From: a virus
IMG/VR virus record: IMGVR_UViG_3300022916_000006
Location: 1-64,000 of that record
DNA length: 64,000 nucleotides
Direction: 5' to 3' (one strand)
The notes beneath the pieces are model-generated. The model was not told where the DNA came from, did no database searches, and saw nothing but the letters and a program-made list of their open reading frames with translations. The translations under genes were made by a program, and so were the position numbers. The first letter of the stretch is position 1; each line of letters starts with the position of its first letter. Shown piece by piece: positions 1,003-56,390 of the stretch.

Positions 1003-1755
1003 ATGACAGAAAACACGTTTCCAACAGAATTCATAGAGTTACCAAGCCAAGGATTAGTATATCCAAAAAGTAGTCCATTAAGTACAGGTAAAATTGAATT
1101 AAAATTTCCAACAGCAAGAGAAGAAGATATATTATCAAGCAACAGTTTAATAAAAAATGGAACTGTTATTGAGAAATTTATGGATTCATTAATTGTTGAT
1201 AAGAAAATAAAAGCTACTGAATTAATTGGTGGTGATTCTGATGTAGTATTAATATCAGCTAGAGTATTGGCATATGGTCCAAAATATGAGACAGAGATCA
1301 GTATTCCAGGTGAAGGTAAGATTAAACACGTATTCAATTTAACTGAATGTGAATTTAAACCACTACCAGATGATGTAAAATATAACAATAAAAATGAATT
1401 TAAATTTACATTACCACAATCAAAATCAGTTATCACATTCAAACTATTAACATACGGTGAAAGTGAATTAGTTGAAAAAAGAATAAAGACCATCACTAAG
1501 AAAACTGGAATGAGTGTATCACCTACAGTCACAACTAGATTAAAAGAGGCTATAATTGCAATAGATGGTAATGCTGATAGATCAACTGTATATTCAGCAA
1601 TTGATAATATGTTAGCTATTGATTCATTAGAGTTAAGAAAAGAGATTCAAAGGGTTACACCAATATTAAATACAGAATATATTATAGAAGTTGGAGGTGA
1701 AGACGTTACGGTAACATTGCCAATAGCGTTGGACTTTTTTTGGCCCAACATCTAA
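1003..1755 (+). CDS. 26: gp26-like baseplate / tail-assembly protein (T4_baseplate family)
   Basis: A 250-residue protein with an AGAGG ribosome-binding site just upstream. It opens with the signature FIELPSQGLVYP, followed by a glycine/serine turn and an AREEDILSS segment, a pattern I associate with the T4 gp26-type baseplate family. It lies before the tape measure gene, where tail-assembly chaperones and baseplate-hub assembly proteins are found. The last codons run over seven Ts (1735-1741) just before the stop, and the +1 frame continues for 62 codons, so a longer frameshifted product is likely. Family assignment is by recognised motif only. Confidence 0.8.
   Translation: MTENTFPTEFIELPSQGLVYPKSSPLSTGKIELKFPTAREEDILSSNSLIKNGTVIEKFMDSLIVDKKIKATELIGGDSDVVLISARVLAYGPKYETEISIPGEGKIKHVFNLTECEFKPLPDDVKYNNKNEFKFTLPQSKSVITFKLLTYGESELVEKRIKTITKKTGMSVSPTVTTRLKEAIIAIDGNADRSTVYSAIDNMLAIDSLELRKEIQRVTPILNTEYIIEVGGEDVTVTLPIALDFFWPNI
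1735..1741 (+). promoter_or_regulatory. Candidate +1 (or -2) translational frameshift site
   Basis: Seven consecutive T bases read as Phe-Phe-T in the frame of the upstream gene, 12 bases before its stop codon. A Phe tRNA on TTT (1738-1740) could re-pair perfectly with TTT at 1739-1741. The +1 frame then runs open to 1930 and encodes a conserved-looking domain with no usable start codon of its own. Programmed frameshifting just upstream of the tape measure gene is well known in tailed phages; its use here is inferred. Confidence 0.55.
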
Positions 1756-4166: not shown

Positions 4167-5414
4167 TTGGGTTTAGAAAGTTTAACAAGTGCATTTTCAC
4201 GATTAAATACAGATGAACGACAAGCATTTGATTTAACAGAATTAAGTACAAATCTTGATTTAGATAGTACTGATGTCAGATTCAAAGCTGGTATTGGTTT
4301 TCCTGGTGCTAAAACAAAATTGGTAGTTTCAACAAAAGGGATAGATGCAAGTTTCTTCTATATAGATACACCAACGGGCAATATTAAAACTTATTCTAAT
4401 ATTATTGGTATAAGTGGTGCTGTGAATAACTTAGGACCAATATCAGATGTATTATCTAGTTTGGGTATAAATACACCAAATATACCATTTGGAGCATCAA
4501 TTGATGTAACTAAAGAAGCCAAGAAAATTGATGAATTTGTTAAAGATAAGAAGAATTCAATCAAGGATTTCTTTGGTGTTCAAGCTACAGCAACTATGGA
4601 TGCTAATGAATTACCAAATATAGATAAAGCCACACAAAGTGAAATACTAAATGAAGATGAATTTAAAAAGAATAAATCCATTGTAGAAAATAGTATATTA
4701 AATGATACGTACAAAAATCAAAAAGTAATTTCAGAAATTAAAGGGTTCCCACTATATTTTAAAGATTTACGAAATAATACATACATAATATTTAGAGGAT
4801 ATATTGAAGGATTGACTGATAATATTGCTCCAAGTTGGAATGCTGAAACATATCCAGGTAAAAGTTCACCAACATATATTTATGAAAATACAAGTAGAGA
4901 TATTTCATTCACATTAAAATTAATGGCACATAGTCAAAAAGAATTATCATCTATATATAAAAAATTAAATAGGTTGGTATCATTGTGTTATCCAGAATAT
5001 AAAATTGATGATGGGTTGAGTATGACAAAGAGTACACCACAAACTGAAATCATAAATACAGGAGATAGTGGATTTGATACATCAGAGATAGGCTTTGAAG
5101 CATCAGAAGATGTAACAGTAACTACTACAATATCTGATAAAATACGAATGAAGGCTCCTGTATTAAAACTTAGAATTGGTGACGTGTTTGGTACACCAGG
5201 GTCTGGATTGATTGGGCATTTAACAAATATAAATCCAACATTTCCAGATGAATCACCGTGGGAAATTGAGCTTGGCAAAAAAGTACCAAAGTTTATTGAT
5301 GTTGCAATTACATATCAAGTAATGCATAGTGAAGTACCAGGAATTGAAGTATCAGAGAGTGGTGAAACAACACAAACAAATTTCTATGGATATGTAGGAG
5401 ATAGTGATGCGTAG
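4167..5414 (+). CDS. Baseplate/tail-tube initiator protein (gp48/gp54-like)
   Basis: A 415-residue protein starting at TTG; a GGAG-like site at 4156-4159 lies seven bases before it, and the nearby ATG at 4162 runs straight into a stop. The central region (about residues 205-275) contains GYIEGLTDNIAPSWNAETYP, followed by ISFTLKLMAHSQKELSSIYK, the layout of a tail-tube-like baseplate fold that caps or starts the tube. It follows the tape measure gene as T4 genes 48 and 54 do. The exact T4 counterpart is uncertain. The 3' end overlaps the next gene by 8 bases. Confidence 0.65.
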   Translation: MGLESLTSAFSRLNTDERQAFDLTELSTNLDLDSTDVRFKAGIGFPGAKTKLVVSTKGIDASFFYIDTPTGNIKTYSNIIGISGAVNNLGPISDVLSSLGINTPNIPFGASIDVTKEAKKIDEFVKDKKNSIKDFFGVQATATMDANELPNIDKATQSEILNEDEFKKNKSIVENSILNDTYKNQKVISEIKGFPLYFKDLRNNTYIIFRGYIEGLTDNIAPSWNAETYPGKSSPTYIYENTSRDISFTLKLMAHSQKELSSIYKKLNRLVSLCYPEYKIDDGLSMTKSTPQTEIINTGDSGFDTSEIGFEASEDVTVTTTISDKIRMKAPVLKLRIGDVFGTPGSGLIGHLTNINPTFPDESPWEIELGKKVPKFIDVAITYQVMHSEVPGIEVSESGETTQTNFYGYVGDSDA

Positions 5415-5682
5415 ATATAAAGGTACAAAAAGATCAATTGATGATGCTACTGGTAAATTGAAATATGATACTACATTATATCAAACAATTCCAGATCGAG
5501 ATGGTGATTTATTTATTATAACTCAAGATGGTGATAGATTAGATAATCTTGCATATAGATTTTATAAAGATTCTTCATTATGGTGGTATATAGCAAATGC
5601 TAATAATATACAAACTATGAATGTAGAGTCGGGTTTACAATTAAGAATACCAGTTTCATTATCCAATGCTAAAGGATTTTAA
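5407..5682 (+). CDS. LysM-like baseplate / tail protein (gp53- or gpX-like)
   Basis: A 91-residue protein starting at ATG 5407, six bases after AGGAG (5396-5400); a GTG three bases earlier is less well placed. The segment DGDRLDNLAYRFYKDSSLWW followed by YIANANNI and a final LRIPV is the LysM-like pattern of phage tail protein X and of the T4 gp53 LysM region. Such proteins bind peptidoglycan or join the baseplate hub to the wedges. It is small and has only this one domain. Confidence 0.75.
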   Translation: MRRYKGTKRSIDDATGKLKYDTTLYQTIPDRDGDLFIITQDGDRLDNLAYRFYKDSSLWWYIANANNIQTMNVESGLQLRIPVSLSNAKGF

Positions 5683-5685
5683 AAA

Positions 5686-8556
5686 ATGATTGATATTAAT
5701 AAACGTGTATTTGGAAATCAAATTCCAAATGAAGTTCGTGAAGTATTAGAAACTAGAAAACAGTTATCCAGAGGTAAAGGACCAAACGAAGAATTAGAAG
5801 TCTCAACAGATATGGTATTAAACTTTGATGGTGAAGCTGAATTATCATCACGTACACCATTTATTAGAATGTGGACTGCAATTGCGGCTACTCAAGGAAA
5901 TAGTACTGGTGGTATTATATATGAAGTTGGAAATAATATATATAATAATTTAAGATTAGATGAACAATTTGGAAATATCACAGGAAATTCAACCAGATGG
6001 GGTGCTAATATGTCTGAAATATTACCAATGGAATTTGAATTAAATAAGAATGATTTTCTACGATATCCAGCCGCTATCAAAAGTTTAACATCAGAAACAA
6101 AAGGTACATTAGGAATAACTCGTGAAACTACAATTGAATTTGTTGTACATAATATTTATGATTATAATAATATATATAGTGTGTTCTTTACAAAACCAGG
6201 TGCTCAGATATTTGTTGATTATGGTTGGGATACTGCAAAATTGTACGATACGAAGGATATAGTATCAGGTGATAGTCTAGGTATATCTAAACTGATATAC
6301 GGCGATAATGGGGCAATTTTGGGCTCCAGAGGCGACTTAAATGTAGTGTATGGTGTTGTTACAGATTTTACAGTTACACCAACTACTACTGATTCATTCG
6401 ATATAAGTTTAACAATATTATCAAAAAATACAACAATATTAAATTCTAGCTTAGTTGATGGATATGATGATGCAAAACAAACATTGATTAAATTATTAGA
6501 TATTAAAGTTATTGATTATGCGGCTCGATTTTTCATTGATCCAAATACAGGAGCACCTTATAGTTTTTTGATTGATGGGTGGATATATTTAGAAGATAAA
6601 GAAACATACATAAACAGAGCAAAAATGTTTGCATCATTAAAATTAAGTGGAGCTGAAGGAAATATAACTGAAAATGAATTATTATCTGGGGTGTATTGGC
6701 AAACAACAGATGATGGTGATCCAAATATTGATGGTGAGGATAGTGTATTTATATCATGGGGCTTATTTGAAGATTTAATATTGAATGCTGAATTTGGTGT
6801 TGGGACTGATATTAAAACTATATTGGAAGGTAAGAATTTTGAAGGTAGATTTGACTCATCACAATCATTAATTCGATATAATAGACGATTGGTAGATAAG
6901 CAAAATTATAATGAAAATAAAGAATTGTCTGCATTTTTATATCCACCTAAACATTTAGTCGTTGGTGATGATGCAAAAACATTCAATACGATTACAAATA
7001 AATCAGTTGAATATAAATATGATACTGCATCATTTATACCAATGAGAGAATTATTTGTTAAGGTATCAGTGATTAAACATGCGATTAGTACTCAAGATAC
7101 ATTACGTAAAGCACTTGCTGAAATATTTAGAATGATAAATTTGGCATCAAATGATGTGTTTTCTTTGAAATTGATGTCTGGTGATTTATCTGATTCTGTA
7201 TTATCAGTTATTGATCAAAATTCAATGTTTACTAAAGCTGAGGAATCTGATAATTTTAATGATATGTTTGTGTTTGAATTAAATTCACCAAATTCATTGG
7301 TTAAAGATTATTCATTTTCATATTCATTAGGTGGTGGTGATTTGCAGAGTATGTACGCAATACAGGGTGCTAGTGCCAATAATACATTCTTCCCAACAAA
7401 TAATATGATCGATAAGTTTTTAACAATGAAGGGTGCTTTATATCAACCAGATGAGGGTATTCAATTATATAATGTACCAACAACTGATACAATACTTACA
7501 CATAAAACTGATAGAATATTGGTTAATATGGACATGCAACATGAATATATCAATAGACGAGCATATGACGATGTTAATTTTATAAAAGAAATTGGTAATC
7601 TTGGTGAATTAACAGCTGATGAGCTTGGATTAATAATACCAGAAAAAGATAAAACACCTATACAAAATGAATCAATTTCAGCTGAAGATAAAGAAGATAT
7701 AATAAAAGATGAACGTGAATTATATGCAAAAAATGACATGATAATCAATGAAAATTTATTATTACCTACCACAATAGATTCATATTTTGAAGATAAAATA
7801 AATGAAAATTTTATATTGAATGATAAATCAACATACGTTGGTATTGAATTTTCTATGGATATATATGGAATATCATCATTATCATATGGTGATGTGTTTA
7901 GAATTGATCATTTACCAGAGCGATATAGTGACATGGTTTATTTTCAAATAACAGGTATATCAGATGATGTATCGACATCAGGTTGGACTACTAAATTAAC
8001 TACAATAATGCGTTTACGTAGTAATATTAAAAAAAATAATAAAAAACTTATGGTTTTCACGGATATCACCTATATTTATATAAGTAAAGTAGTTTTAAGC
8101 AACATTATAAAGGGTAATTCAGTTAACAATAAATTTATATATAAATTAGTACCAATTCCATCATATTTTAAAAATATAAAATATGCATTCACATTTGAAT
8201 CAGCTGAAGATGGTACGTTTGAAAATAATACTGGTAGAGATAAGGATGGCAAAGGTAACGATTTTTTAATACCATTAACTGATAACATTATAAATGCTGG
8301 TGTTGTTAATACATTTTCACAAATTAATACTGACACAATTGAAGACTCTGAAGTCTCATATGGAGTTGTAGGTGCTGATGCTGAGGTTATAACGACAACC
8401 TATCTTACAGTAAAAAATACTAATTTGAAAAAAAGTGATAAATGTTTATTGCTTGTTGGTGATAACAATATAAGCATTTGTCACAAGTTACAACCAACTG
8501 ATAATATGAAACAACTACAAACAGGATTCTCAAAAGCATTCTTAGCAACAGTATAG
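5686..8556 (+). CDS. Large baseplate hub-like structural protein
   Basis: A 956-residue protein and the largest in the window. The N-terminal third has alternating strands, including EFVVHNIYDYNNIYSVFFTK and a GAQIFVDYGWDT segment, as in hub proteins that form a tube-like ring. The region near residues 720-785 (GDVFRIDHLPERYSDMVYFQ then ITGISDDVSTSGWTTKL) resembles the C-terminal part of phage hub proteins. About 170 further residues follow, unusual for a minimal gp27-like protein. Position after the tape measure and LysM genes supports a hub role. No lysozyme or peptidase motif was found. Confidence 0.65.
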   Translation: MIDINKRVFGNQIPNEVREVLETRKQLSRGKGPNEELEVSTDMVLNFDGEAELSSRTPFIRMWTAIAATQGNSTGGIIYEVGNNIYNNLRLDEQFGNITGNSTRWGANMSEILPMEFELNKNDFLRYPAAIKSLTSETKGTLGITRETTIEFVVHNIYDYNNIYSVFFTKPGAQIFVDYGWDTAKLYDTKDIVSGDSLGISKLIYGDNGAILGSRGDLNVVYGVVTDFTVTPTTTDSFDISLTILSKNTTILNSSLVDGYDDAKQTLIKLLDIKVIDYAARFFIDPNTGAPYSFLIDGWIYLEDKETYINRAKMFASLKLSGAEGNITENELLSGVYWQTTDDGDPNIDGEDSVFISWGLFEDLILNAEFGVGTDIKTILEGKNFEGRFDSSQSLIRYNRRLVDKQNYNENKELSAFLYPPKHLVVGDDAKTFNTITNKSVEYKYDTASFIPMRELFVKVSVIKHAISTQDTLRKALAEIFRMINLASNDVFSLKLMSGDLSDSVLSVIDQNSMFTKAEESDNFNDMFVFELNSPNSLVKDYSFSYSLGGGDLQSMYAIQGASANNTFFPTNNMIDKFLTMKGALYQPDEGIQLYNVPTTDTILTHKTDRILVNMDMQHEYINRRAYDDVNFIKEIGNLGELTADELGLIIPEKDKTPIQNESISAEDKEDIIKDERELYAKNDMIINENLLLPTTIDSYFEDKINENFILNDKSTYVGIEFSMDIYGISSLSYGDVFRIDHLPERYSDMVYFQITGISDDVSTSGWTTKLTTIMRLRSNIKKNNKKLMVFTDITYIYISKVVLSNIIKGNSVNNKFIYKLVPIPSYFKNIKYAFTFESAEDGTFENNTGRDKDGKGNDFLIPLTDNIINAGVVNTFSQINTDTIEDSEVSYGVVGADAEVITTTYLTVKNTNLKKSDKCLLLVGDNNISICHKLQPTDNMKQLQTGFSKAFLATV

Positions 8557-8563: not shown

Positions 8564-9826
8564 ATGTATATAGTTTTACCAATATTTTCAGACGTAAAAG
8601 AACATTATATGGATAATAGATTATCTTTATTATATGTTGAAGATTATGATACTGGACAATCTGATATATATTCCATCAATAATTGTGATAAATATGATAC
8701 ATTAGATTTTGAATTCTTGAACACTGCTGATATTATAACATTCAATAAAAAGGAATTATATAATATTATTGATATAGACAGAGATAATGTATATGATATC
8801 AATTTGTTAAATTATTTCATTGAGAATAAAAAGATGAATTTTAGTAGTGATGCAGATACAAGTTTAAATTGGTATAAGTTAAAATATAGGCATCTTAAAA
8901 ATGTAAATGATATAATACCATCAGTGAAACATAAGCAATATTTACGAGGATTGTCTACAGAGCTTAAACGAGTGTGGAATGCTAAGGATACAATACAATT
9001 TGATAGTTATGCAGATTATAATAATAAAGTACTATCAGCATTCAATTCATTAGATAGAATTAAATTATCATTATCGACACGACAGAGTTTAAATTCATTA
9101 ATAGATAAAAATCATATATATCAGAACTTTAATATATATACCAAAACAGGTAGAACGAGTAACACATTCAATTCTGTTAATTTTCTTGCTATGACAAAAG
9201 AAATGCAAAAATGCTTTGTTGCTTCAAATGATGTATTTCTATCATATGATTATGATGCATATCATGTAAGATTAATTGCCAATTTAATAAATTATAACTT
9301 CAACAATGTTGAGTCTGTTCATTCATTATTTGCTGATAATTATGGATGTTCATATGATGAAGGTAAGTCACGAACATTTAGAATTATGTATGGTGGAATA
9401 ACAGATGAAGATTTGAAGATTGAATTCTTTTTTAGAGTGAATGAATATGTCAATGAATTATGGAATAAGTATATAACAGATAGATATATAGAGACTCCAA
9501 TATATAGAAGAAGAATGTATAAGAGAAATTTAACAATCAATAACAAATATAAACTATTAAGTTATTTGGTACAAGCATATGAAACTGAACTTAATGCAAA
9601 CATTATAACCAAATTACAAGAATATTTGAAAGACAAAGAGAGTAAATTGATACTGTATAATTATGACAGTTTCACATTTGATATTTCATATAAAGATGGT
9701 ATAAATGTGATACCAGATACTAAGAATATAATAGAGAATAATATATTTAAAGCAAAGGTATATTACGGCAAATCTTTAGATAATTTAACAAACGTTACGG
9801 AGAAAGTAAATGAGAGATATAAATAA
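8564..9826 (+). CDS. Divergent family-A DNA polymerase-like protein
   Basis: A 420-residue protein lying directly after the baseplate genes. It carries the polymerase-I palm/finger landmarks in order and spacing: TGRTSNTFNSVNF (195-207); motif A DYDAYHVRLIANL (from D229); motif B KSRTFRIMYGG (268-278) with the K-x3-F-x3-YG spacing intact; a YLVQAYETELNANII segment (334-348) like the pol I Q-helix; and motif C YNYDSF (365-370). The two metal-binding Asp equivalents (D229, D368) remain, but the motif A Glu is His234 and the HDE of motif C is YDS. The N-terminus (about 20-85) resembles a degenerate 3'-5' exonuclease fold. Activity is uncertain. The genome also has a family-B polymerase. Confidence 0.7.
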   Translation: MYIVLPIFSDVKEHYMDNRLSLLYVEDYDTGQSDIYSINNCDKYDTLDFEFLNTADIITFNKKELYNIIDIDRDNVYDINLLNYFIENKKMNFSSDADTSLNWYKLKYRHLKNVNDIIPSVKHKQYLRGLSTELKRVWNAKDTIQFDSYADYNNKVLSAFNSLDRIKLSLSTRQSLNSLIDKNHIYQNFNIYTKTGRTSNTFNSVNFLAMTKEMQKCFVASNDVFLSYDYDAYHVRLIANLINYNFNNVESVHSLFADNYGCSYDEGKSRTFRIMYGGITDEDLKIEFFFRVNEYVNELWNKYITDRYIETPIYRRRMYKRNLTINNKYKLLSYLVQAYETELNANIITKLQEYLKDKESKLILYNYDSFTFDISYKDGINVIPDTKNIIENNIFKAKVYYGKSLDNLTNVTEKVNERYK

Positions 9827-10592: not shown

Positions 10593-11366
10593 ATGAATAA
10601 AAAAGAGATTTATTTCTTTTTTTCTATAGGATGTGCATATTGCAAAAAAGCAGAACCACATATTGAAAAATTGAATAAAGAAGGTTACAACGTTACAAAA
10701 TTAGACGTTGCAGATATAAAAAATAAAAAAGCATTTGCTGAAATAAAAAAAGAACTTGATATTAAATGTGGAACACCACTATTTGTTGATGTAGAATCTG
10801 ATAGATTTCTATGTGGATATAGAGACTTCGATACATTACATAGTTGGTTAGAAGGTGCTGATGTACCATCACATATAGGTCCAATTACAAAACCACCAAT
10901 ATTACCACTAATGGATGCAAAATCAACTGAAGTTGATAAGTTCAAGAAAGAATATAAAAAATGGGTATCAGATAATTCACATATGGAGAATATGCGAAAT
11001 GTTGATGATATGTTGAAAAACAGACCTAAGACTAAACCACCAGTACCACCTAAAAATATAACAGATGTCACATTGAAAGCATTTAAGAAAGAGTATACTA
11101 CATGGCAATCTGAAAATACACATTTGAAGAATTTAATAGATGTTGATAAAGTCATACAGATGTTAAAACAAAGAGCGAATGTTACCAATACAGCATCTAC
11201 AGGTGTTACCATACCACATGTTAAAACTATAAATACATCATTTTATTATATGGTTGAAAATGGTAAAAATGTTAAAGTATATGCAGATAGTGAATATATA
11301 AAAAAACTACAACAAACTCATTATATGAGAGATACTACAGGTAAATTAACAAAAGTTGTAATTTAA
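10593..11366 (+). CDS. Thioredoxin/glutaredoxin-fold protein with two internal repeats
   Basis: A 257-residue protein with a GAGGG site before the ATG. Residues 1-88 form a thioredoxin-like domain with the redox motif CAYC (C14, C17) and the cis-proline segment GTPLFVD (60-66). Two tandem repeats of about 44 residues follow (about 100-143 and 148-191), each with a Pro-rich lead-in, FKKEY and W, and a DV(D) end. The C-terminal 50 residues are a separate small strand-rich region. It probably acts as a thiol-disulfide oxidoreductase; the repeats may bind a partner or position it in the virion. Confidence 0.75.
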   Translation: MNKKEIYFFFSIGCAYCKKAEPHIEKLNKEGYNVTKLDVADIKNKKAFAEIKKELDIKCGTPLFVDVESDRFLCGYRDFDTLHSWLEGADVPSHIGPITKPPILPLMDAKSTEVDKFKKEYKKWVSDNSHMENMRNVDDMLKNRPKTKPPVPPKNITDVTLKAFKKEYTTWQSENTHLKNLIDVDKVIQMLKQRANVTNTASTGVTIPHVKTINTSFYYMVENGKNVKVYADSEYIKKLQQTHYMRDTTGKLTKVVI

Positions 11367-11762
11367 ATGAAGAAGTTTGATATAACACCCGTAGATGAGG
11401 GTGAATTAACTGAATCTGAATTGGTAGAGGTTTCAAACATTGAAAGTGTAGTAGATGAAGAGAATGTCAAGAAGTTCCCGTCACGGTTCAATATGGCACG
11501 ATCATTTGCTATTCAGAGTTGGAAAGAGATAAAGTCACGAGTTAAATTAAAAAATGCACCACAATCAATTGATGAGTCCAATCGAAGATGGGAGATATGT
11601 AAAACATGTCCATTTTTAGTATTTGATGAAACCAATCCCGATACTGGAAAGAAAGATGGTAGATGTATTCATTGTGGATGTTTCATGGCAATCAAAGTGC
11701 ATTACATCACAGCTGAATGTCCAGAAGAAAAGTGGGATGAAAAAGAAAATGAAAATAAATGA
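11367..11762 (+). CDS. Small zinc-binding protein
   Basis: A 131-residue protein starting at the base after the preceding stop. The acidic N-terminal 40 residues look disordered. The C-terminal half has RWEICKTCPFL, then GRCIHCGCFMAIKVH, then AECPEEKW: a C-x2-C...C-x2-C-x-C...C arrangement typical of a phage zinc-ribbon family. Role unknown; zinc ribbons of this type usually bind nucleic acid or other proteins. The gene ends immediately before the promoter repeat of the ssDNA-binding protein gene. Confidence 0.75.
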   Translation: MKKFDITPVDEGELTESELVEVSNIESVVDEENVKKFPSRFNMARSFAIQSWKEIKSRVKLKNAPQSIDESNRRWEICKTCPFLVFDETNPDTGKKDGRCIHCGCFMAIKVHYITAECPEEKWDEKENENK

Positions 11763-11828: not shown

Positions 11829-11880
11829 CAATAAACAATAAATAATAAAATAAAAAATAATAACAATAGGAGTTATGATT

Positions 11881-12675
11881 ATGGATGTAAATGCCGCAAT
11901 TAAAAAGTTACAAAAATTACAAAACGTTACGAGCACAGCAAAGAACATTTGGAAACCTACTGGAAAATCAACTGTTAGAATAGTACCTTATAAATTCAAT
12001 AAGGATAACCCATTTCTTGAATTATATTTTCATTATAATTTAGGTGATAACAAAACACATCTTTCACCAGTATCGTATGGTAGACCTGATCCGATTCAAG
12101 AGTATGCTGATAAACTAAAAGCTACTGGAGAAAAGCAAGATTTTGTTGAGGGAAGAAAGCTTGAACCTAAAATGAGAACATTTTTACCAATCGTCGAAAG
12201 AGGAAAAGAAGATGAAGGTGTCAAATTTTGGGGATTTGGTAAAACAGTATATACAGAATTGTTAGGTACTATTGCTGATCCTGAATATGGTGATATTACA
12301 CGAATTGAAGAAGGTCGTGATATTAACATTGAAAAGCAAACACCACAACAAGCAAACAATCAATATGGGAAAGTACTAATTAGAGTTAGTCCTAGAGTGT
12401 CACCATTACATGAGGATGCAACGGTAACTAAATCATTATTAGAAGATCAGCTTGATATTAATGATGTGTATGAGGAACCTTCATATGATGAGTTAGATAG
12501 ATTATTTAAGAATCTAATATCTCCAGAAGATGATGATTCTAATGGATCAAATGGTGAGAGTACGGAATCACATGCAGAACCTGCTGGTGATGTTGAAACT
12601 ACACAACCTGCACAAGCAACAACCGATCCAACAGAAGTTGGTGATGCGTTTGAACAAGCGTTCGGATCAAAATAA
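11881..12675 (+). CDS. 32: ssDNA-binding protein (T4 gp32-like)
   Basis: A 264-residue protein. The ATG at 11881 is preferred to that at 11875 because it is eight bases from AGGAG (11868-11872). The core (about residues 20-190) has KSTVRIVPYKF, an aromatic-rich LELYFHYNLG, and SPVSYGRPDPI, as in gp32-type OB-fold proteins that coat single-stranded DNA. The last ~60 residues are acidic and Gly/Ser/Thr-rich and end in FEQAFGSK, a typical protein-interaction tail. I do not see the Cys/His zinc site of T4 gp32. It is followed by a strong terminator and preceded by a promoter and leader hairpin. Confidence 0.85.
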   Translation: MDVNAAIKKLQKLQNVTSTAKNIWKPTGKSTVRIVPYKFNKDNPFLELYFHYNLGDNKTHLSPVSYGRPDPIQEYADKLKATGEKQDFVEGRKLEPKMRTFLPIVERGKEDEGVKFWGFGKTVYTELLGTIADPEYGDITRIEEGRDINIEKQTPQQANNQYGKVLIRVSPRVSPLHEDATVTKSLLEDQLDINDVYEEPSYDELDRLFKNLISPEDDDSNGSNGESTESHAEPAGDVETTQPAQATTDPTEVGDAFEQAFGSK

Positions 12676-12709
12676 GGTTCACACTATAACCTCGTAGTTA
12701 TGTAAACGA

Positions 12710-12732
12710 ATATGCCCCCTTTGGGGGCATAT
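12710..12732 (+). terminator. Rho-independent terminator after ssDNA-binding protein gene
   Basis: ATATGCCCCC (12710-12719) pairs perfectly with GGGGGCATAT (12723-12732) around a TTT loop, followed by TTTAC. The five G-C pairs stand out in this AT-rich DNA. It would end the ssb transcript and separate it from uvsX, suiting a highly expressed single-gene unit. Confidence 0.85.
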
Positions 12733-12744
12733 TTTACAACAATT

Positions 12745-12758
12745 TATAAATATATAAT
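12745..12758 (+). promoter_or_regulatory. Promoter-like element upstream of uvsX
   Basis: TATAAATA (12745-12752), identical to the T4 late-promoter core, is followed at once by TATAAT (12753-12758), a perfect sigma70 -10. AGGAG and the uvsX start lie just downstream. A promoter is expected because a terminator sits immediately upstream. No clear -35 is visible, and the short distance to the ATG leaves a leader of only a few bases. Confidence 0.45.
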
Positions 12759-12770
12759 CAGGAGCTGTAT

Positions 12771-13871
12771 ATGTCAAAAACTAATACGGACACATTGGCT
12801 GGAGTCTTAGCCAATGATTTAAACAAACAATTTAAAGATAACGACAAAGTGGCGTTCTTTTTAGATGACGCAAAAGGATCACCTACTGATGTAGTTGATT
12901 TCGTTTCAACAGGATCATCAATTTTAGATTTAATAATTTCAAATAGAAAAAATGGTGGATTACCATACGGTAAAATAGTAGAGTTTCAAGGGTTAGAAGC
13001 ATCAGGAAAATCATTAATATGTTCACATGTAATTGCTGAAGTACAGAAGCAGGATGGAATTGGTATATACATAGATACTGAATCTGCGGCATCTCAAGAG
13101 TTTTTAACTGCTATTGGAGTGGATAACAGTCAAATGTTATATTTGAGTTTTGATACGGTTGAAGATATTTTCAGTTCAATTGAAGCATTAGTAACAAGAA
13201 TAAGATCATCAGATCGAGACAGAAAAGTTGTGATAGTGGTTGATTCTATATCAGCCGCATCAAGTAAAGTTGAAATGGAAGCTGATTTTGATCAAGCTGG
13301 TTGGGCAACTGCAAAAGCTATTATTATTTCAAAAGCTATGAGAAAATTAACACAAATGATTGCCAAACAAAAAATATGCTTAATATTCACATCACAATTA
13401 CGAATTAATCTTGGTGTATCATTTGGTGACAAATACATAACATCAGGTGGTAAAGCATTAGGATTTCATGCATCAGTTATTGTTAGATTAACAAAATCAT
13501 TAAAAATCAAAAACCCAAAAGGTGATATAATTGGAATTCAAGCGAAGGCTAAAATTCATAAAAATAGAATAGGACCCCCATTACGAGAAACTACTATATT
13601 GATATATTTTGATCGTGGGATTGATGATATTAACGGATGGTTGCAATTTTTGAAGATTCGAAAGTTAGTAAAATCAGGTGGGTCTTGGTACACAATTACA
13701 CATCCAACTACAAAAGAAGACATTAAATTTCAAGCAAAAGATTGGGAAAATAAACTTAAAGATCCTGTATTGAAAAGTCATGTGTATGATATTATATGTG
13801 ATGATTTAATATTAACATACAAAAAACGTGAAGATCGTAATTTAGATAATATTAACGTAGTAGATGAATGA
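12771..13871 (+). CDS. uvsX: RecA-family recombinase (UvsX-like)
   Basis: A 366-residue protein that forms filaments on single-stranded DNA and drives strand exchange and recombination-dependent replication. Walker A is GLEASGKS (74-81) and Walker B is VVIVVD (153-158), and FTSQLRINLGVSFGDKYITS fits the DNA-binding L2 region and SQ(L/I)R motif of UvsX/RecA. Length is close to T4 UvsX (about 390). An AGGAG lies before the ATG. It begins a run of replication genes (exonuclease, helicase) as in T4-like recombination modules. Confidence 0.92.
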   Translation: MSKTNTDTLAGVLANDLNKQFKDNDKVAFFLDDAKGSPTDVVDFVSTGSSILDLIISNRKNGGLPYGKIVEFQGLEASGKSLICSHVIAEVQKQDGIGIYIDTESAASQEFLTAIGVDNSQMLYLSFDTVEDIFSSIEALVTRIRSSDRDRKVVIVVDSISAASSKVEMEADFDQAGWATAKAIIISKAMRKLTQMIAKQKICLIFTSQLRINLGVSFGDKYITSGGKALGFHASVIVRLTKSLKIKNPKGDIIGIQAKAKIHKNRIGPPLRETTILIYFDRGIDDINGWLQFLKIRKLVKSGGSWYTITHPTTKEDIKFQAKDWENKLKDPVLKSHVYDIICDDLILTYKKREDRNLDNINVVDE

Positions 13872-13878: not shown

Positions 13879-14883
13879 ATGAATGCTAATGATAATATCT
13901 TAATTGTAGACGGATTCAACACCTTCAAGAGAGTATTTGCAGTCAATAGCTCAGTTAATTCAATTGGTGAGCATGTTGGTGGTATTGTTGGATTTTTATA
14001 TTCATTACGTAAAGCGATAAATATAATCAATCCAAGTAGATGTATCATTGTATTTGATGGAAAAGATGGGTCTAAATATAGACGTAAAATATATCCAGAA
14101 TATAAGATGAATAGACGTAATAAACATAGTTACAATCGACATAAACAGTTCAGCACGGGCGTATCAGAAGAACAACAAATCATAAATGAATTGAGACATT
14201 TAATTACATATCTGGAAGTGTTACCATTAAACATAATATCAATAGATGGTATTGAAGCTGATGACACGATAGCATATATAGTGAATACTCTATCTCATGA
14301 TAAAAATAAAACAACAATAATGTCTACAGACAAAGATTTCTATCAATTAATCAATGATAACGTTATAGTGTGGAGCCCAACTAAAAATATATTAGTTACT
14401 AAAACTGAAGTAAATGATGAATTTGGTATTATTCCAGATAACTTTATTGTATTGAAAACATTAATTGGTGATAATAGTGACAACATATCTGGTATAAAAG
14501 GTGCAGGGTCAAAGACAGTGAAGAAGTATTTTCCAGAGTTATTTACGAGTGATGTTATGGATATGAAAGAGTTTTTCAAATATGCAAAAGAATGTAGTGT
14601 AGATTCTAAATTAAAAATACATGATAATGTGATTAATAATATTGATATATTAAAAAGAAATTATATATTAATGCAACTAAAAAACCCACCAGTGAATAAT
14701 AGAAATAAATTGAAAATAACAAACATAGTGAATGGAGATATACCAGAATTGATAAAATATAAATTGCAAGTTACATTCTTACAAGATAATCTATCATCAA
14801 ATATAAAGAATTTTGAATCATTTATTAGATCATTTAATATATTACATTTTAATGCATGTGATCATAATAAAAATATAACATGA
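13879..14883 (+). CDS. 5'-3' exonuclease / flap endonuclease (RNase H-like, FEN family)
   Basis: A 334-residue protein probably removing RNA primers and flaps during lagging-strand synthesis. It has the FEN/PIN-like acidic landmarks: IVDGFN (from residue 9), FDGKDGSKYRRKIYPEYK in the arch region, IEADDTIAY, MSTDKDFYQL, and the helix-3-turn-helix segment GDNSDNISGIKGAGSKT. It resembles the N-terminal nuclease of DNA polymerase I and T4 RNase H. It starts seven bases after uvsX and overlaps the helicase gene by four bases (ATGA), so the two are translationally coupled. Confidence 0.88.
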   Translation: MNANDNILIVDGFNTFKRVFAVNSSVNSIGEHVGGIVGFLYSLRKAINIINPSRCIIVFDGKDGSKYRRKIYPEYKMNRRNKHSYNRHKQFSTGVSEEQQIINELRHLITYLEVLPLNIISIDGIEADDTIAYIVNTLSHDKNKTTIMSTDKDFYQLINDNVIVWSPTKNILVTKTEVNDEFGIIPDNFIVLKTLIGDNSDNISGIKGAGSKTVKKYFPELFTSDVMDMKEFFKYAKECSVDSKLKIHDNVINNIDILKRNYILMQLKNPPVNNRNKLKITNIVNGDIPELIKYKLQVTFLQDNLSSNIKNFESFIRSFNILHFNACDHNKNIT

Positions 14884-16235
14884 AAAATATAGAATACTTA
14901 AAATATGGTTACAATTTCCAAATAAAATTAATTGTTGCACTGATGCTTGATAGAACGTTTTTAGAACAGATATATGATATATTGGATGTTAAATTAATAG
15001 AAGCTGAATCATTGAAATGGATATTTAAAAAAATGAAAACATATTTTGAAAAATATCAAAAGTCAATTACATTTGATATATTTAAAATTGAAATGGAAAC
15101 AGATAAAGTATCTGATATAATAAAAAGTGACATTATAGATAAGCTACGAGATGTACATAAAAATTACAATGCTACAGATTTGGATTTTATAAAAGATAAA
15201 TCAGTTGAATTTTTTAAAAATCAAAATTTAAAAGGTGCAATAGTTGAGACTGCATCATTGATGGAAAACACATCACAAGATTATGATAAAATAAGAACAA
15301 TAATAAATAACGCATTAAATGCGGGAACAGAGAGAAACATAGGACATGAATATTTAACAATGATAACAGAAAGATATGATGAAGAAAACAGAAATACAAT
15401 ACCAACACCCTGGTCACATTTTAATGAGGCTATGGATGGTGGTTTAAGTGCTGGTGAATTAGGTGTGATAGTTGCACCAAGTGGAGTTGGTAAGAGTTGG
15501 ATATTACAAGCAATGGCGGCTCATATGATACAAGAAGGCAAGGATGTGGTGTATTACACAATGGAATTAAATGAGATATATGTTGGTAAACGAGTTGATA
15601 GTATATTGAGTGGAATAAATTATCAAGAATTAAAATATCGTGAAGATGAAATTCACCCGATAGTTAATAAAATACCAGGTAAGTTAACGATTAAATATTT
15701 TCCAACAAAGTATCCAACAGCACATACATTGTTGGCACATACTAAAAAATTAAGAGCAATGGGAATTGGATGTGATGCTATAATAGTCGATTATGCAGAT
15801 ATTATTAAAGATGCACAAGCCAATACTGAAATGAGACATGCATTAGGTAATATATATGAAGATTTGAGAGGTATTGCTGGTGAATTAGAAGTACCTATGT
15901 GGACAGCATCACAAGCAAATAAGAGTGCATTACAAGATGACATAATTGAAGCTGAAAGAATTGCAGAATCATATCAAAAGATAATGACAGCAGATTTTGT
16001 ATTATCATTATCACGACATAAAGAAGATAAGATTGCAAATACTGGAAGGTTTCATGTTATAAAGAATAGATTTGGGCCTGATGGGATGTCATATAGTGCT
16101 GAAATTGATACCAATAAAGGTTATATACGAATATTAAAAGCATATAATGAAGTAAAGACGCTATCTCCAACAGAAACTAAAGCTTATCATGGAAAACGTC
16201 ATAAAGAAATATTTGGTAAAGCTACTAGGAGTTAA
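14880..16235 (+). CDS. 41: Replicative DNA helicase (DnaB/T4 gp41-like)
   Basis: A 451-residue ring helicase that unwinds DNA ahead of the fork. The N-terminal ~150 residues are helical. The RecA-like core has Walker A APSGVGKS (199-206), VVYYTMELNEIYVGKRVDS (the DnaB H1a-like glutamate region), Walker B AIIVDYADII, and a Q/R region MWTASQANKSA. The C-terminal FHVIKNRFGPDG fits the arginine-finger end of DnaB-family helicases. It overlaps the exonuclease gene upstream by ATGA. No separate primase was recognised in this window. Confidence 0.92.
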   Translation: MKNIEYLKYGYNFQIKLIVALMLDRTFLEQIYDILDVKLIEAESLKWIFKKMKTYFEKYQKSITFDIFKIEMETDKVSDIIKSDIIDKLRDVHKNYNATDLDFIKDKSVEFFKNQNLKGAIVETASLMENTSQDYDKIRTIINNALNAGTERNIGHEYLTMITERYDEENRNTIPTPWSHFNEAMDGGLSAGELGVIVAPSGVGKSWILQAMAAHMIQEGKDVVYYTMELNEIYVGKRVDSILSGINYQELKYREDEIHPIVNKIPGKLTIKYFPTKYPTAHTLLAHTKKLRAMGIGCDAIIVDYADIIKDAQANTEMRHALGNIYEDLRGIAGELEVPMWTASQANKSALQDDIIEAERIAESYQKIMTADFVLSLSRHKEDKIANTGRFHVIKNRFGPDGMSYSAEIDTNKGYIRILKAYNEVKTLSPTETKAYHGKRHKEIFGKATRS

Positions 16236-16240: not shown

Positions 16241-18262
16241 ATGAATATAAAATCATTTAAATTATCAAAACAATTTGTTGAAAGATATAAGAAAATAAAT
16301 CCAGAATTTGGATTTGATGGTCTTGGTGAATTAGTGTACATGAGAACCTATTCAAGAATTAAAGACGATGGTACAAATGAAGTGTGGTGGGAAACTGTAC
16401 AACGTGTGGTTGAAGGAACCTACACCATGCAAAAGAATCATATTGAAAATTCTAATTTGGGTTGGAATGCATGGAGAGCACAGAAATCAGCACAAGAGAT
16501 GTACAGACGAATATTCACTATGAAGTTTTTACCACCAGGTCGTGGATTGTGGGCAATGGGAACACCAATAACAGAGGAACGTGGATTATATGCCGCATTA
16601 AATAATTGTGCATTTGTTTCAACCAAAACATTAAAAGAAGATTTGTCAAAACCATTTTGTTTTTTGATGGATGCATCAATGTTAGGAGTTGGTGTTGGTT
16701 TTGATGTGAGAGGTGCTGAACAAATAATCATTAAACCACCTAGAGTATCATCATTAAAAGAGAAATATGTTGTTCCAGATGATCGTGAAGGTTGGGTTGA
16801 AAGTTTGAAATTATTACTTGATAGTTATTTCATGGGTACTGGTGAAATTGAATTTGATTATTCATTAATTAGAGCTGAAGGTGCTTTAATTAAAGGATTT
16901 GGTGGAGTGAGTAGTGGTGCAGGACCATTAAAAAAAGTACACAAAGACATTCGAAGAGTATTGAACGGTAATATTGATGATCCAATAACGATTACCACGA
17001 TTGTTGATATTATGAATTTAATTGGAACATGTGTTGTAGCTGGTAACGTGAGAAGAAGTGCTGAGATTGTATTTGGTGAAGCTACTAATGATGAATATAT
17101 CAATTTAAAAAATTATGAAATGAATCCAGAACGAGAAGAATATGGTTGGACATCAAACAATTCAGTATTTGCTAATGTAGATACTGATTATTCACAGTTT
17201 GTTGATAGAATATGTGACAATGGTGAGCCTGGGATATTTTGGTTAGATAATGCAAGAAAATATGGTAGAATGTCAAATGGTCCAGACAACAAAGACTTTC
17301 GAGCTGATGGTACAAATCCATGTGCAGAGCAAGTATTAGAATCGTATGAATTATGTTGTTTGGTTGAAACATTTCCAGATAGACATGAATCATTAGATGA
17401 TTTTTTAACTACTCTTAAATATGCATATTTATATGCAAAGACGGTGACTCTTGGTAAAACTCAATGGTCTGACACAAATAGAGTGATGTTGAGAAATAGA
17501 AGAATTGGATGCAGTGTGAGTGGAGTGGCACAATTTATATCACATCAGGGATTAACTACATTAAAGAAATGGTTAGATGTTGGATATAATGCAATTAAAG
17601 AGTGGGATGAGAAATATTCTGATTGGTTTGCAATACCAAAAAGCATTAGAGTTTCAAGTGTGAAACCAAGTGGTACAATCTCATTATTAGCTGGTGCAAC
17701 ACCAGGAATTCATTATCCAGAGAGTAGATTTTATATACGTCGAATTAGATTATCAAATACAAGCAAATTATTAACACCATTGAAGAGAGCTGGATATGTT
17801 ATTGAACCTGCATTTGGTAGTGAAGATTCTACAGTTGTAGTTGAGATTCCAATTGATGTTGGTGAAGGAGTAAGAACGTTAGATGACGTGGGGATGTATG
17901 AGCAATTATCATTGGCGGCATTTATGCAGAAGTATTGGTCTGATAATTCAGTAAGTTGTACAATTACATTTGATAGGGAGACTGAAGGACCACTAATTGA
18001 ACAAGCATTGAATTATTTTCAATATCAATTAAAGAGTGTTTCATTCTTACCAAAATTAGACAATACTACATATAAACAAATGCCATATGAACATATAACT
18101 GAAGATGATTATAATACAATTACTAAGAAGATCAAGAAATTGAATTTCAAAAGCGTTAAAGGAAATGAAGCTGAGATTGATAGATTTTGTACAACAGATT
18201 ATTGTGAATTAGGATCAGAAATTAGTGAAATAAAATCAACACAAAATGTAGGAAAAAAATAG
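16241..18262 (+). CDS. nrdJ: Adenosylcobalamin-dependent (class II) ribonucleotide reductase
   Basis: A 673-residue single-chain reductase making deoxynucleotides from ribonucleotides with vitamin B12 as radical source. NNCAFVST (C123) and NPCAEQ (C361) followed by C372 are the three active-site cysteines in the order seen in monomeric class II enzymes. KPSGTISLLAGATPGIH is the phosphate-binding segment. The C-terminal C-x4-C pair (C650, C655) would be the redox shuttle. AGGAG precedes the ATG. B12 dependence means it needs cobalamin from the host; no NrdB or NrdD partner is seen. It is followed at two bases by the dUTPase. Confidence 0.93.
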   Translation: MNIKSFKLSKQFVERYKKINPEFGFDGLGELVYMRTYSRIKDDGTNEVWWETVQRVVEGTYTMQKNHIENSNLGWNAWRAQKSAQEMYRRIFTMKFLPPGRGLWAMGTPITEERGLYAALNNCAFVSTKTLKEDLSKPFCFLMDASMLGVGVGFDVRGAEQIIIKPPRVSSLKEKYVVPDDREGWVESLKLLLDSYFMGTGEIEFDYSLIRAEGALIKGFGGVSSGAGPLKKVHKDIRRVLNGNIDDPITITTIVDIMNLIGTCVVAGNVRRSAEIVFGEATNDEYINLKNYEMNPEREEYGWTSNNSVFANVDTDYSQFVDRICDNGEPGIFWLDNARKYGRMSNGPDNKDFRADGTNPCAEQVLESYELCCLVETFPDRHESLDDFLTTLKYAYLYAKTVTLGKTQWSDTNRVMLRNRRIGCSVSGVAQFISHQGLTTLKKWLDVGYNAIKEWDEKYSDWFAIPKSIRVSSVKPSGTISLLAGATPGIHYPESRFYIRRIRLSNTSKLLTPLKRAGYVIEPAFGSEDSTVVVEIPIDVGEGVRTLDDVGMYEQLSLAAFMQKYWSDNSVSCTITFDRETEGPLIEQALNYFQYQLKSVSFLPKLDNTTYKQMPYEHITEDDYNTITKKIKKLNFKSVKGNEAEIDRFCTTDYCELGSEISEIKSTQNVGKK

Positions 18263-18264
18263 AT

Positions 18265-18687
18265 ATGGAATTAAAAGTGAAAAGATTAACTCGACATGCT
18301 AGATTACCAGAAAAAGCACATGCTGATGATTTGGGGTATGATATATTTTCATCAGAACCTTATCAATTTGAACCTGGTGATATTAGAACAATAAAGACTG
18401 GAATATGTATATCACCAAATAATAATTCATATGGGTGTATTATCAAAGATAGAAGCTCACTTGCTATGAAAGGGATGTTTGTACATGCTGGTATTATTGA
18501 TGCTGGATATAGAGGTGAGGTAAAAATACTATTTCATAATGCATCAAAGAAGGCATATCAAATCGATACTGGTGATAAAGTTGCACAGTTGATTCCACAT
18601 AAGATTATCAATTTTACAATTACTGATCAATATGATCTACATAACACAAAAAGAGGAGCTAAAGGCTTTGGAAGTACAGGTAAATGA
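18265..18687 (+). CDS. dut: dUTP diphosphatase
   Basis: A 140-residue trimeric-type dUTPase that hydrolyses dUTP to dUMP, keeping uracil out of DNA and feeding dTMP synthesis. All five conserved motifs are visible: DLGYDI (motif 1), DRSSLA (2), GIIDAGYRGE (3), GDKVAQLI (4) and RGAKGFGSTG (5, near the C-terminus). Its length is typical. It lies between ribonucleotide reductase and DNA polymerase in a nucleotide-supply block and overlaps the next gene by ATGA. Confidence 0.95.
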   Translation: MELKVKRLTRHARLPEKAHADDLGYDIFSSEPYQFEPGDIRTIKTGICISPNNNSYGCIIKDRSSLAMKGMFVHAGIIDAGYRGEVKILFHNASKKAYQIDTGDKVAQLIPHKIINFTITDQYDLHNTKRGAKGFGSTGK

Positions 18688-19035: not shown

Positions 19036-21552
19036 ATGTATCAAAATATACACATTACAAGATTAAAAAACGCATATAAAGTTCATCTATGGGATGATGC
19101 TGATGGATATTCAGAATATATACACAAAACATATGCATACGTAAAAAATACTAAGGGTAAATATCTATCATTATATGGTGATAAAGTTAAAAAGGTTGAC
19201 CATTGGAGTAAAGAAGACTTACAAGCAGGTAAGATATTTGAAAGTGATATCCCACCAGAAACACGAGTCTTAATTGATAAATATGGTGAATCTGATGAAG
19301 TATCAATTAATCATAGAGAATTATATTTTGATATAGAAACTGAAGTAACACAAGGATTTCCTGATAAAAATAGAGTGGATAATAAAATAACATCAATAGC
19401 ATTATATGATAAATCAAAAGATGCATATTGTGTATTTATCACATCAGAAGATAATTTAAATTATATAGAAGATAATGTAACGGTGGAATCGTTTGATACT
19501 GAAGAATTAATGTTACATCGATTTTATGAAGAATATGTGACAATATCACCTACCATATTGAGTGGTTGGAATATTGATGGATTTGATGTTCCATATTTAT
19601 ATAATAGAACGAATAGATTGTTTGGTGAAGAATATGCAAATTCACTATCTCCCATCGGAATTGTTCAATATAATGAGTATAGTGATACATATAAAATTGC
19701 AGGAGTATCTTGTTTGGATTATTTAGCATTATATAAAAAGTTTGCAATTAAACAACAATCTTCATATCAATTGGGTGCCATTGGTCAACTTGAGGTTGAC
19801 ACAGGTAAGATTGAATATAGAGGATCATTGAATGATCTATATAAAAATGATATTAAAAAGTTTATTAAATATAACTTAAATGATGTTGTAATTATTAAAA
19901 AATTAGATGATAAATTAAAATATATTGAAATTGCTATGGGTATTGCTCACATTGGACATGTGCCATATGATACCATATATCATAGTAGTAGATATCTTGA
20001 TGGTGCAATTCTTACATATTTGAAGAAAAATAATATAATAGCACCGAATAGAAAACAAATAACAAAAGAAGCTAAAGATTCACATTTCAGTGGTGCATAT
20101 GTAAAAGAACCAATTCCTGGTAGATATGATTGGGTATATGATTTGGATTTGACATCAATGTATCCAAGCATAATTATGTCATTAAATATATCACCAGAAA
20201 CTAAAATAGGTAAATTTGAAAATTGGGATGATACATCTCTCATTGATGAAAATAAAGATGATCATATATTTATAAAAACCGATGGTACTAAATATGAATT
20301 GACACATAGTAAGATGAGGGAAATACTTGATAATAACGAGATGACCATTTCATCAAATGGAGTGATGTATGATAATGATCGAGTAGGAGTGATTCCTACA
20401 ATATTGAACACTTGGTTTGATCAACGAGTGCATTATAGAAAGTTAATGGCACAATATGATGAGTCTGGTGATATTAAACAGAGAGATTTTTATGATAAAC
20501 GTCAACATGTTCAAAAGATTATATTGAATAGTTTGTATGGTGTATTAGGATTATCAGTATTTAGATTTTATGATATTGATAATGCTGAGGCAACTACATT
20601 GACTGGTCAAGCTCTTATTAAATATACTCAAAAGATGGCTAATTATTATTATAATAATGAATTGAACGATGATAAGGATCATGTAATATATACAGATACT
20701 GATTCAATATATTGTTCTGCTGTACCAATAATAAAGAATAGATTTCCTAATATAGATGTGTCAGATGATAAAATTATGACAGAAAAAATATTGGATGTAA
20801 CATCAAATGTGCAAACATTTATTAATAAAAGTTATGATATGTTTGCTGATAAACTTTTAAACTGTAAATCGCATAAATTTAACATAAAGCAAGAAGTGAT
20901 TTCAAAATCAGCATTTTGGGTTACTAAAAAAAGATATGGTCAATGGATTATAAATGATGGTGGGACTCCATGTAATAAATTAGATGTTAAAGGACTTGAT
21001 ATTGTTAAAAGTAATTTCCCAGTATCATTCAGAGGTATTATGACTAAATTGTTAAATGGGATATTAAATCATGATCCTAAATCTCAGATAGATGATATGT
21101 TATCAAATTTTAAAATGAAAATGAAAACATTACCATTAAGTGATATTGCATCTCCAACTGGAGTAAATAATATGAAAAAATTTAAACATAAACCTAGGAC
21201 AATATATAATTCAAATATGATATTCACGAAGACTAAAAAAGGAGCACCAGCTCATGTCAAAGCTGCTATAGTTTATAATGATTTATTGGAATATTTTAAA
21301 CTTACGAATATAGTACCAATTACTAGTTCAGATAAGATAAGATGGGTATATTTAATAGAAAATCCTCTAAACATAGAACAGATTGCATTTAAGGGATATG
21401 ATGACCCTGAAGAAATCATGAGTTATATTAATATGTATGTTGATCGTAATAAAATATTTAACAAATTATTGCAGAAAAAGATAGACATGTTTTATGATAG
21501 CATGAGTTGGGTATTTGTTGATACTCAAAATACATTAGAACGTTTTTTTTAA
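19036..21552 (+). CDS. 43: Family-B DNA polymerase (T4 gp43-like)
   Basis: An 838-residue replicative polymerase with 3'-5' proofreading. Exonuclease motif I is YFDIETE (D99, E101), with NIDGFDVPYL as Exo II. Polymerase motif A is DLDLTSMYPS (369-378), motif B KIILNSLYG (494-502), and motif C YTDTDSIY (552-559). T4 gp43 is about 900 residues, so this is slightly shorter but complete. It has no intein. The cognate clamp and clamp-loader genes lie 5-9 kb downstream, with the base-modification cassette inserted between. Confidence 0.95.
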   Translation: MYQNIHITRLKNAYKVHLWDDADGYSEYIHKTYAYVKNTKGKYLSLYGDKVKKVDHWSKEDLQAGKIFESDIPPETRVLIDKYGESDEVSINHRELYFDIETEVTQGFPDKNRVDNKITSIALYDKSKDAYCVFITSEDNLNYIEDNVTVESFDTEELMLHRFYEEYVTISPTILSGWNIDGFDVPYLYNRTNRLFGEEYANSLSPIGIVQYNEYSDTYKIAGVSCLDYLALYKKFAIKQQSSYQLGAIGQLEVDTGKIEYRGSLNDLYKNDIKKFIKYNLNDVVIIKKLDDKLKYIEIAMGIAHIGHVPYDTIYHSSRYLDGAILTYLKKNNIIAPNRKQITKEAKDSHFSGAYVKEPIPGRYDWVYDLDLTSMYPSIIMSLNISPETKIGKFENWDDTSLIDENKDDHIFIKTDGTKYELTHSKMREILDNNEMTISSNGVMYDNDRVGVIPTILNTWFDQRVHYRKLMAQYDESGDIKQRDFYDKRQHVQKIILNSLYGVLGLSVFRFYDIDNAEATTLTGQALIKYTQKMANYYYNNELNDDKDHVIYTDTDSIYCSAVPIIKNRFPNIDVSDDKIMTEKILDVTSNVQTFINKSYDMFADKLLNCKSHKFNIKQEVISKSAFWVTKKRYGQWIINDGGTPCNKLDVKGLDIVKSNFPVSFRGIMTKLLNGILNHDPKSQIDDMLSNFKMKMKTLPLSDIASPTGVNNMKKFKHKPRTIYNSNMIFTKTKKGAPAHVKAAIVYNDLLEYFKLTNIVPITSSDKIRWVYLIENPLNIEQIAFKGYDDPEEIMSYINMYVDRNKIFNKLLQKKIDMFYDSMSWVFVDTQNTLERFF

Positions 21553-22840: not shown

Positions 22841-22841
22841 T

Positions 22842-24079: not shown

Positions 24080-24082
24080 TAA

Positions 24083-25421: not shown

Positions 25422-25456
25422 ACTATCAATCAAAACTCACACTGGAGGAAGATATA

Positions 25457-56115: not shown

Positions 56116-56390
56116 TGAAATATCCATGTTATATAGTCAAGATGAAGTCAACCAACAATATGGCGTTTAGTTGTAGTCCAGCATATTTAACCAAAGCATC
56201 AACAGGTGTTGTGACTGGTAAAATATGGATAGATTCTAATATTAATGATGCTATTAGATTTGAAAGAAACGTAGATATAAAAAACTTACATAAACATGAA
56301 ATTCCAATTAATTTATCAATATTAGTGGCTAAATATGGCGAACCAATGAAAATAAATTCAGAAGCTGAATGGGTAGCAATGATGTTATGA
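56115..56390 (+). CDS. Small array protein, first in the run
   Basis: A 91-residue protein beginning at the last base of the preceding stop. It begins MKYPCYIVKMK and ends SEAEWVAMML, a variant of the YYII ... ENELVAHLL plan of the following genes. Its middle (DAIRFERNVDIKNLHKHEIP) is longer than in the later members. It overlaps the next gene by four bases (ATGA). Confidence 0.65.
   Translation: MKYPCYIVKMKSTNNMAFSCSPAYLTKASTGVVTGKIWIDSNINDAIRFERNVDIKNLHKHEIPINLSILVAKYGEPMKINSEAEWVAMML

Follow-up and report, generated by a model that had tools for sequence, protein, structure and literature searches.

Genomic Setting of the Polymerase Gene

The window, by which we mean the whole stretch of DNA analysed here, comprises the first 64 kb of a linear virus record of 118,745 bases that is possibly incomplete. 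The open reading frame at 8564–9826 was confirmed exactly as a preliminary description of this DNA had given it, on the plus strand and with a coding capacity of 420 amino acids. The same description had located the gene inside a tail/baseplate block; however, tail genes were found upstream only, with replication genes downstream (Table 1). The gene therefore lies at the tail/replication boundary and is the first of a conserved run made up of the polymerase, small genes, gp32, UvsX, the 5'-3' exonuclease and gp41. The last tail gene, which is also directly upstream of the polymerase in most of the other loci, ends 7 bp before it. The family-B replicase mentioned in the preliminary description was recovered further downstream, while no DnaG-type primase was found in the phage's own, possibly incomplete record.

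Two small conserved genes follow the polymerase, the second of which encodes a protein of the type 'TQLLCTF...TISLHRKK.TNTLYTINALN' that is present in hundreds of contigs. Before gp32, positions 10593–11762 hold a thioredoxin/glutaredoxin-like protein (PHROG_22, 3e-4) and a small DUF6171-like gene, a pair observed mostly in loci closer to the window phage.

Beyond the replication run, Pfam matches at 21566–26647 revealed 7-deazaguanine (queuosine-type) genes, i.e., PTPS/QueD, a radical-SAM QueE-like protein, GTP cyclohydrolase I and QueC; after these comes a DpdA/TGT-like protein, recognised by eye and without a Pfam match. As judged from its sequence, this gene set suggests that the window phage may carry modified DNA. 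A block of more than 20 kb (32852–56115) contains, by eye, glycosyltransferases, sugar epimerases, aminotransferases and methyltransferases, and at 56115–58311 there are approximately 7–8 tandem small ORFs (76–104 aa), paralogous-looking by eye, with 'KYYII...' starts and 'ETELVAYLL' ends.

Table 1. Features of the window at and around the polymerase gene. Residue positions refer to the 420-aa protein, and brackets give the corresponding residues of E. coli Pol I.
Feature	Position	Strand	Evidence
Baseplate hub	1003–1755		PHROG_150
Baseplate-wedge-like protein	5404–5682
Last tail gene, 956 aa, baseplate/hub-region protein	5686–8556	+	No profile match of its own
divPolA1-type accessory family-A DNA polymerase (assignment almost certain), 420 aa	8564–9826	+	Pfam/PHROG matches, AlphaFold2 model, fold, immuto homology
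Vestigial 3'-5' exonuclease-like domain, ~residues 1–88 (boundary approximate)	8564–8827	+	Fold alignment, residue conservation
TGR motif, T195-R197 (R197 [R668])	9146–9154	+	R197 in 130/130
Motif A, DYDAYHVR (D229 [D705]; H234 at [E710])	9248–9271	+	D229 and H234 in 130/130
Motif B/O-helix (Y264 at [R754], K268 [K758], F272 [F762], Y276-G277 [Y766-G767])	9353–9394	+
Q-helix (Q337 [Q849], E340)	9560–9595	+
Motif C, YNYDSFTFD (Y367-D368-S369 [H881-D882-E883])	9656–9682	+	D368 in 131/131
Small conserved gene overlapping the polymerase stop, 112 aa	9810–10148	+	No Pfam/PHROG match
Small conserved gene, 'TQLLCTF' family, 146 aa	10135–10575	+	No Pfam/PHROG match
gp32-like single-stranded DNA-binding protein	11875–12675	+	Pfam gp32 2.3e-11; PHROG ssDNA-binding 8e-14
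UvsX/RecA recombinase	12771–13871	+	Pfam RecA 9.8e-49
5'-3' exonuclease, encoded separately and related to the 5'-nuclease domain of Pol I	13879–14883	+	Pfam 5_3_exonuc_N 2.4e-31
DnaB/gp41-type replicative helicase	14880–16235	+	Homolog annotated as replicative DnaB helicase in immuto; synteny
Family-B replicative DNA polymerase	19036–21552	+	Pfam DNA_pol_B 1.6e-39 and DNA_pol_B_exo1

Identity and Fold of the Encoded Protein

Profile searches matched the 420-aa protein to Pfam DNA_pol_A (E = 2e-7; its 30.7 bits are slightly below the curated cut-off of 34.3 bits) and to the PHROG_17 DNA polymerase (7.5e-9). When the single protein was compared with PDB sequences by phmmer, no match was obtained and a profile was needed; the best hit of the family profile was then Pol theta (E = 9e-4). 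The structure was predicted with AlphaFold2 from an input of 62 sequences, giving a mean pLDDT of 93.1 and a pTM of 0.92. The top Foldseek hits of this model were family-A polymerases only, with E-values down to 6e-16 and 243 PDB chains matching at E ≤ 0.001. Structure prediction and superposition, which the preliminary description had proposed as a check, yielded a polymerase-I fold: in VIA-align, the model superposed on the Bst Pol I large fragment (2hhw) with a Z of 27.1 over 386 residues at 3.5 Å, the alignment covering model residues 1–409, and Bst and Taq Pol I were placed above Pol theta and nu.

Thus, the protein resembles the Klenow part of E. coli, Bst and Taq Pol I in its overall fold, from the exonuclease-like domain to the C-terminus (Z 25–27), and shares with it the catalytic Asp pair and the spacing of the O- and Q-helices. 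It differs from Klenow, of about 580–600 aa, in its size, in the loss of the exonuclease carboxylates and in that the 5'-nuclease is encoded by a separate gene.

A family with these properties, divPolA1, has already been published, having been described in 14 phages including immuto, with genomes of 155–190 kb (Yutin et al. 2024, Virol J 21:200, PMC11348598). Its reported traits are retained palm residues, a truncated thumb, an inactivated exonuclease and replication genes downstream, in genomes that also encode a regular family A, B or C polymerase elsewhere (PMC11348598). The protein studied here likewise keeps the palm residues and has lost the exonuclease residues, its gene has replication genes downstream and a separate regular polymerase (PolB), and no feature excludes it from membership; it is, almost certainly, an additional member of divPolA1. 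In the literature searched, the name divPolA1 appeared only in that article and its preprint. This work adds an estimate of how many members there are, the obligate linkage, records of the family from a 484-kb phage and a Microcystis phage, and the finding that the pocket substitutions do not vary.

Active-Site Residues and Pocket Substitutions

The Pol I landmarks listed in the preliminary description proved to be real, as the motifs could be mapped and profile, fold and family conservation agreed, which rules out chance or mis-called motifs. Its reading of the motif-A Glu as His and of motif C as YDS also held (H234; Y367-D368-S369). Across an alignment of 133 sequences, the residues equivalent to D705, D882, K758, Y766 and Q849 were invariant wherever present, in family members down to 24% identity (mean 40%), and the same catalytic set (D229, D368, K268, Y276 and Q337) was invariant in 48 neighbour-fetched sequences. 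The F762 equivalent, F272, was retained in 131/132. At Q-helix residue 333, the protein has Ser, and most members have Asn (N845).

Compared with Pol I, substitutions were found at the position of E710 (His in 130/130 sequences covering that site), R754 (Tyr in 129/132), H881 (Tyr in 131/131) and E883 (Ser in 113 and Ala in 18, n = 131), so that the motif-A Glu and the Glu of the motif-C Asp-Glu pair of canonical Pol I are replaced throughout. R754 of Pol I binds the incoming triphosphate, and the replacement of E883 by Ser is also found in single-subunit RNA polymerases. With His for the steric-gate Glu E710 and Tyr for R754, the enzyme may depart markedly from Pol I in its kinetics or its substrate.

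Since the motif-A pattern used in our first collection scan contained His, conservation of this residue in that set was circular, and the count was redone in two ways. His occupied the E710 position in 46/46 loci found by the motif-C pattern alone, and in 48/48 loci fetched via neighbour genes with no polymerase query.

In the PolA of phage Tt72, Ser occurs naturally at the E883 position of an experimentally active enzyme (PMC9324360), so a YDS motif does not indicate that activity has been lost. The E710 equivalent has an accessory role in catalysis in Tt72 and is the ribonucleotide-blocking residue of Pol I (PMC9324360). On sequence evidence, the truly unusual feature of the pocket is the His at the E710 position, not YDS. 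The His/Tyr/Ser-Ala changes are not discussed in the text of the divPolA1 article (PMC11348598), figures aside. A second group, divPolA2, consists of small extra family-A polymerases without exonuclease activity and with a variable gene neighbourhood (PMC11348598). In the sequence of the divPolA2 protein of Vibrio phage 1.063.O (AUR84708), motif A retains Glu and motif C reads FDE, and divPolA2 showed no similarity above chance to the divPolA1 profile. The His is therefore not a general trait of divergent phage PolAs.

The N-Terminal Domain

Model residue 1 aligned with Bst residue 315 in VIA-align, and before position 115, D78 is the only acidic residue shared by 90% or more of the family members. 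In Klenow, the TGR Arg is reached after about 344 residues (E. coli numbering); here it is residue 197, so the part ahead of the palm is shortened. The scarcity of conserved acidic residues in the exonuclease-like domain, as read from the aligned family, is consistent with lost proofreading. In line with this, the three exonuclease Asp of divPolA1 were reported as lost on the basis of structure alignment (PMC11348598).

Relatives, Spread and Linkage

Among annotated phages, tblastn retrieved relatives in Flavobacterium phage immuto (160 kb), Microcystis phage Mel-JY01 (190 kb) and an uncultured 484-kb phage, the last of which lies outside the published genome range; all three have the same gene order downstream of the polymerase. 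The immuto homolog (441 aa; E = 2e-39, 33% identity over 79% of the query, near-full-length alignment) is already annotated as 'DNA polymerase family A'. A separate main replicase is encoded in each case, namely PolB in the window phage, Mel-JY01 and the 484-kb phage, and a full PolA in immuto. Each of immuto, Mel-JY01 and the 484-kb phage also encodes a separate DnaG-type primase, which rules out replacement of the primase by divPolA1 in these relatives. With replicase and primase separately encoded, bulk synthesis and priming are covered in the relatives.

With regard to existing annotations, immuto has two family-A polymerases, divPolA1 and a full-length PolA of 777 aa (22855–25188). In Mel-JY01, a separate 5'-3' exonuclease (17363–18403) is labelled 'DNA polymerase I', and the actual PolA-like gene (11968–13194) is listed as 'hypothetical protein'. 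Immuto also has its own annotated 7-deazaguanine genes, including DpdA, as well as an annotated block similar to the sugar/methyltransferase region of the window. No counterpart of the window's DpdA-like protein was detected by sequence in Mel-JY01, the 484-kb phage or immuto, and a polymerase dedicated to 7-deazaguanine-modified DNA was rejected as no consistent link emerged.

Profile scans of viral contigs detected at least 583 and at least 595 relatives; counted without dereplication, the family thus spans hundreds of contigs as a minimum. The order tape measure, tail gene, gp53-like, hub, polymerase, small genes, gp32, uvsX, 5' exonuclease and gp41 recurred in about 95 loci, judged where the contig was long enough and with single genes undetected in some of them. 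Counting unique loci with sufficient upstream sequence, the polymerase was present in 47/47 fetched via the downstream small gene and in 28/28 fetched via UvsX, and thus behaves as a core gene of the replication module. It appears to be an obligate part of this module in an abundant, mostly marine group of T4-like phages, whatever the family of the main replicase.

Mean identity was approximately 40% for the polymerase, 47–65% for the replication genes and 23–27% for the adjacent tail genes. Polymerase distances correlated with those of all replication genes (r 0.81–0.91). In partial correlations with the other genes removed, the exonuclease gave the highest value on raw distances (0.54–0.56), which fell to 0.38 once the small neighbour gene was added; on rank-transformed distances, exonuclease and gp32 were equal (0.36 and 0.34). 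Coevolution with the exonuclease is not robust on ranks, and we take it as a hint only.

Role in the Replication Module

The best overall explanation, to which we assign a probability of roughly 50%, is that divPolA1 acts as the polymerase part of a 'split DNA polymerase I' within the replication/recombination run. In cellular Pol I, the 5'-nuclease and the Klenow part are fused, and primer removal is coupled to gap filling; in the window phage, the 5'-nuclease and the Klenow-like halves are separate genes of one run. Observed directly were the fold, the kept catalytic residues, the lost exonuclease residues, the obligate module position, the separate replicase and, in relatives, the separate primase; divPolA1 is most likely an active, proofreading-deficient accessory DNA polymerase. 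The same structural conclusion was reached for divPolA1 by Yutin et al. 2024 (PMC11348598).

According to the split Pol I model, the co-encoded 5'-3' exonuclease would strip RNA primers or flaps, and divPolA1 would fill the resulting short gaps on gp32-coated DNA, at structures made by UvsX, with the family-B polymerase handling bulk synthesis. Gap filling together with the 5'-nuclease as the main job is proposed tentatively, at slightly less than even odds; it is favoured by the split gene run and by the partial correlation with the exonuclease, with D-loop extension or bypass as the main rival. An extra gap-filling enzyme was among the roles offered in the preliminary description, and is the best supported of them. 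On the other hand, the replicase of T4-type phages is believed to close their lagging-strand gaps itself, so the need for an extra gap filler is not obvious.

A polymerase for recombination or lesion bypass, which would extend 3' ends in UvsX D-loops or copy a damaged or modified template, trading fidelity for tolerance as Pol theta and nu do, is possible but on balance unlikely. Pol theta is a lesion-bypass/end-joining enzyme of family A, and divPolA1 shares with theta and nu a family-A palm without proofreading. The lack of an active exonuclease domain, the Pol theta sequence match of the family profile, the rank-based partial correlation with gp32, which equals that of the exonuclease, and the close linkage to gp32 and UvsX, immediate wherever a locus is informative, would agree with such a role. 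This linkage is, however, common to the 5'-nuclease and the helicase, and does not single out recombination. Pol theta and nu carry long insertions, and theta has a helicase as well, but no Pol-theta-type insertion was seen in divPolA1, which is shorter and not longer; moreover, the fold comparison ranked Bst and Taq Pol I over theta and nu, and Pol theta retains the motif-A Glu and HDE in the profile alignment, whereas divPolA1 does not.

The substituted pocket raises the question of sugar or base selectivity. A His/Tyr/Ser-Ala pocket suited to ribonucleotides or modified nucleotides, e.g., for extending or repairing RNA-DNA junctions or for making short RNA, would fit the constancy of His, also in the polymerase-independent loci, at the very residue that excludes ribonucleotides in Pol I, the precedent of Ser in single-subunit RNA polymerases and the Glu kept by divPolA2. 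Nevertheless, His is bulky and may still gate, F272, the other gate-forming residue, is kept, and Ser at the E883 position also occurs in the ordinary active DNA polymerase of Tt72. Further, three relatives have separate DnaG-type primases, N-terminal RNA-polymerase domains are lacking, and Pol I large fragments cover the model end to end. We regard altered selectivity as distinctly unlikely, and it is similarly doubtful that the invariant pocket makes divPolA1 a naturally occurring variant of the steric gate, whose true substrate would go beyond ordinary dNTPs on DNA alone to ribonucleotides, RNA-DNA junctions or modified nucleotides, and which would be obligate and non-redundant for replication in a very large phage clade. 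The differences from Pol I at several dNTP-pocket residues could also be expected of a catalytically weak or dead fold that serves the replication complex structurally, as a clamp or loader; this is very unlikely, since a dead scaffold would not need the metal-binding Asp pair or the equivalents of Lys758, Tyr766 and Gln849, which are invariant.

The preliminary description had also considered a virion-associated or repurposed polymerase fold, for which we found no support, as the boundary gene heads the replication run in each informative locus, shows replication-like conservation and has invariant catalytic residues. The tail setting would suggest a polymerase injected with the virion, and since the gene begins 7 bp beyond the last tail gene and in its orientation, it could be co-transcribed late. 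Yet the replication genes downstream are conserved, conservation of the polymerase resembles that of replication genes and not that of tail genes, and many loci have an extra gap to the hub gene (median 497 bp). The late-promoter motif TATAAATA was not enriched upstream of the polymerase (2/106 vs. a background of 1.8%), a weak test, and because it was not enriched before tail genes either, the promoter comparison is uninformative. Altogether, a virion role is highly improbable.

As a seemingly obligate second polymerase, divPolA1 lends itself well to asking what purpose an additional Pol I serves in a phage. Its unvarying His, at the residue that normally excludes ribonucleotides, provides a sharp and directly testable prediction, and divPolA1 enzymes could prove to be useful polymerases.
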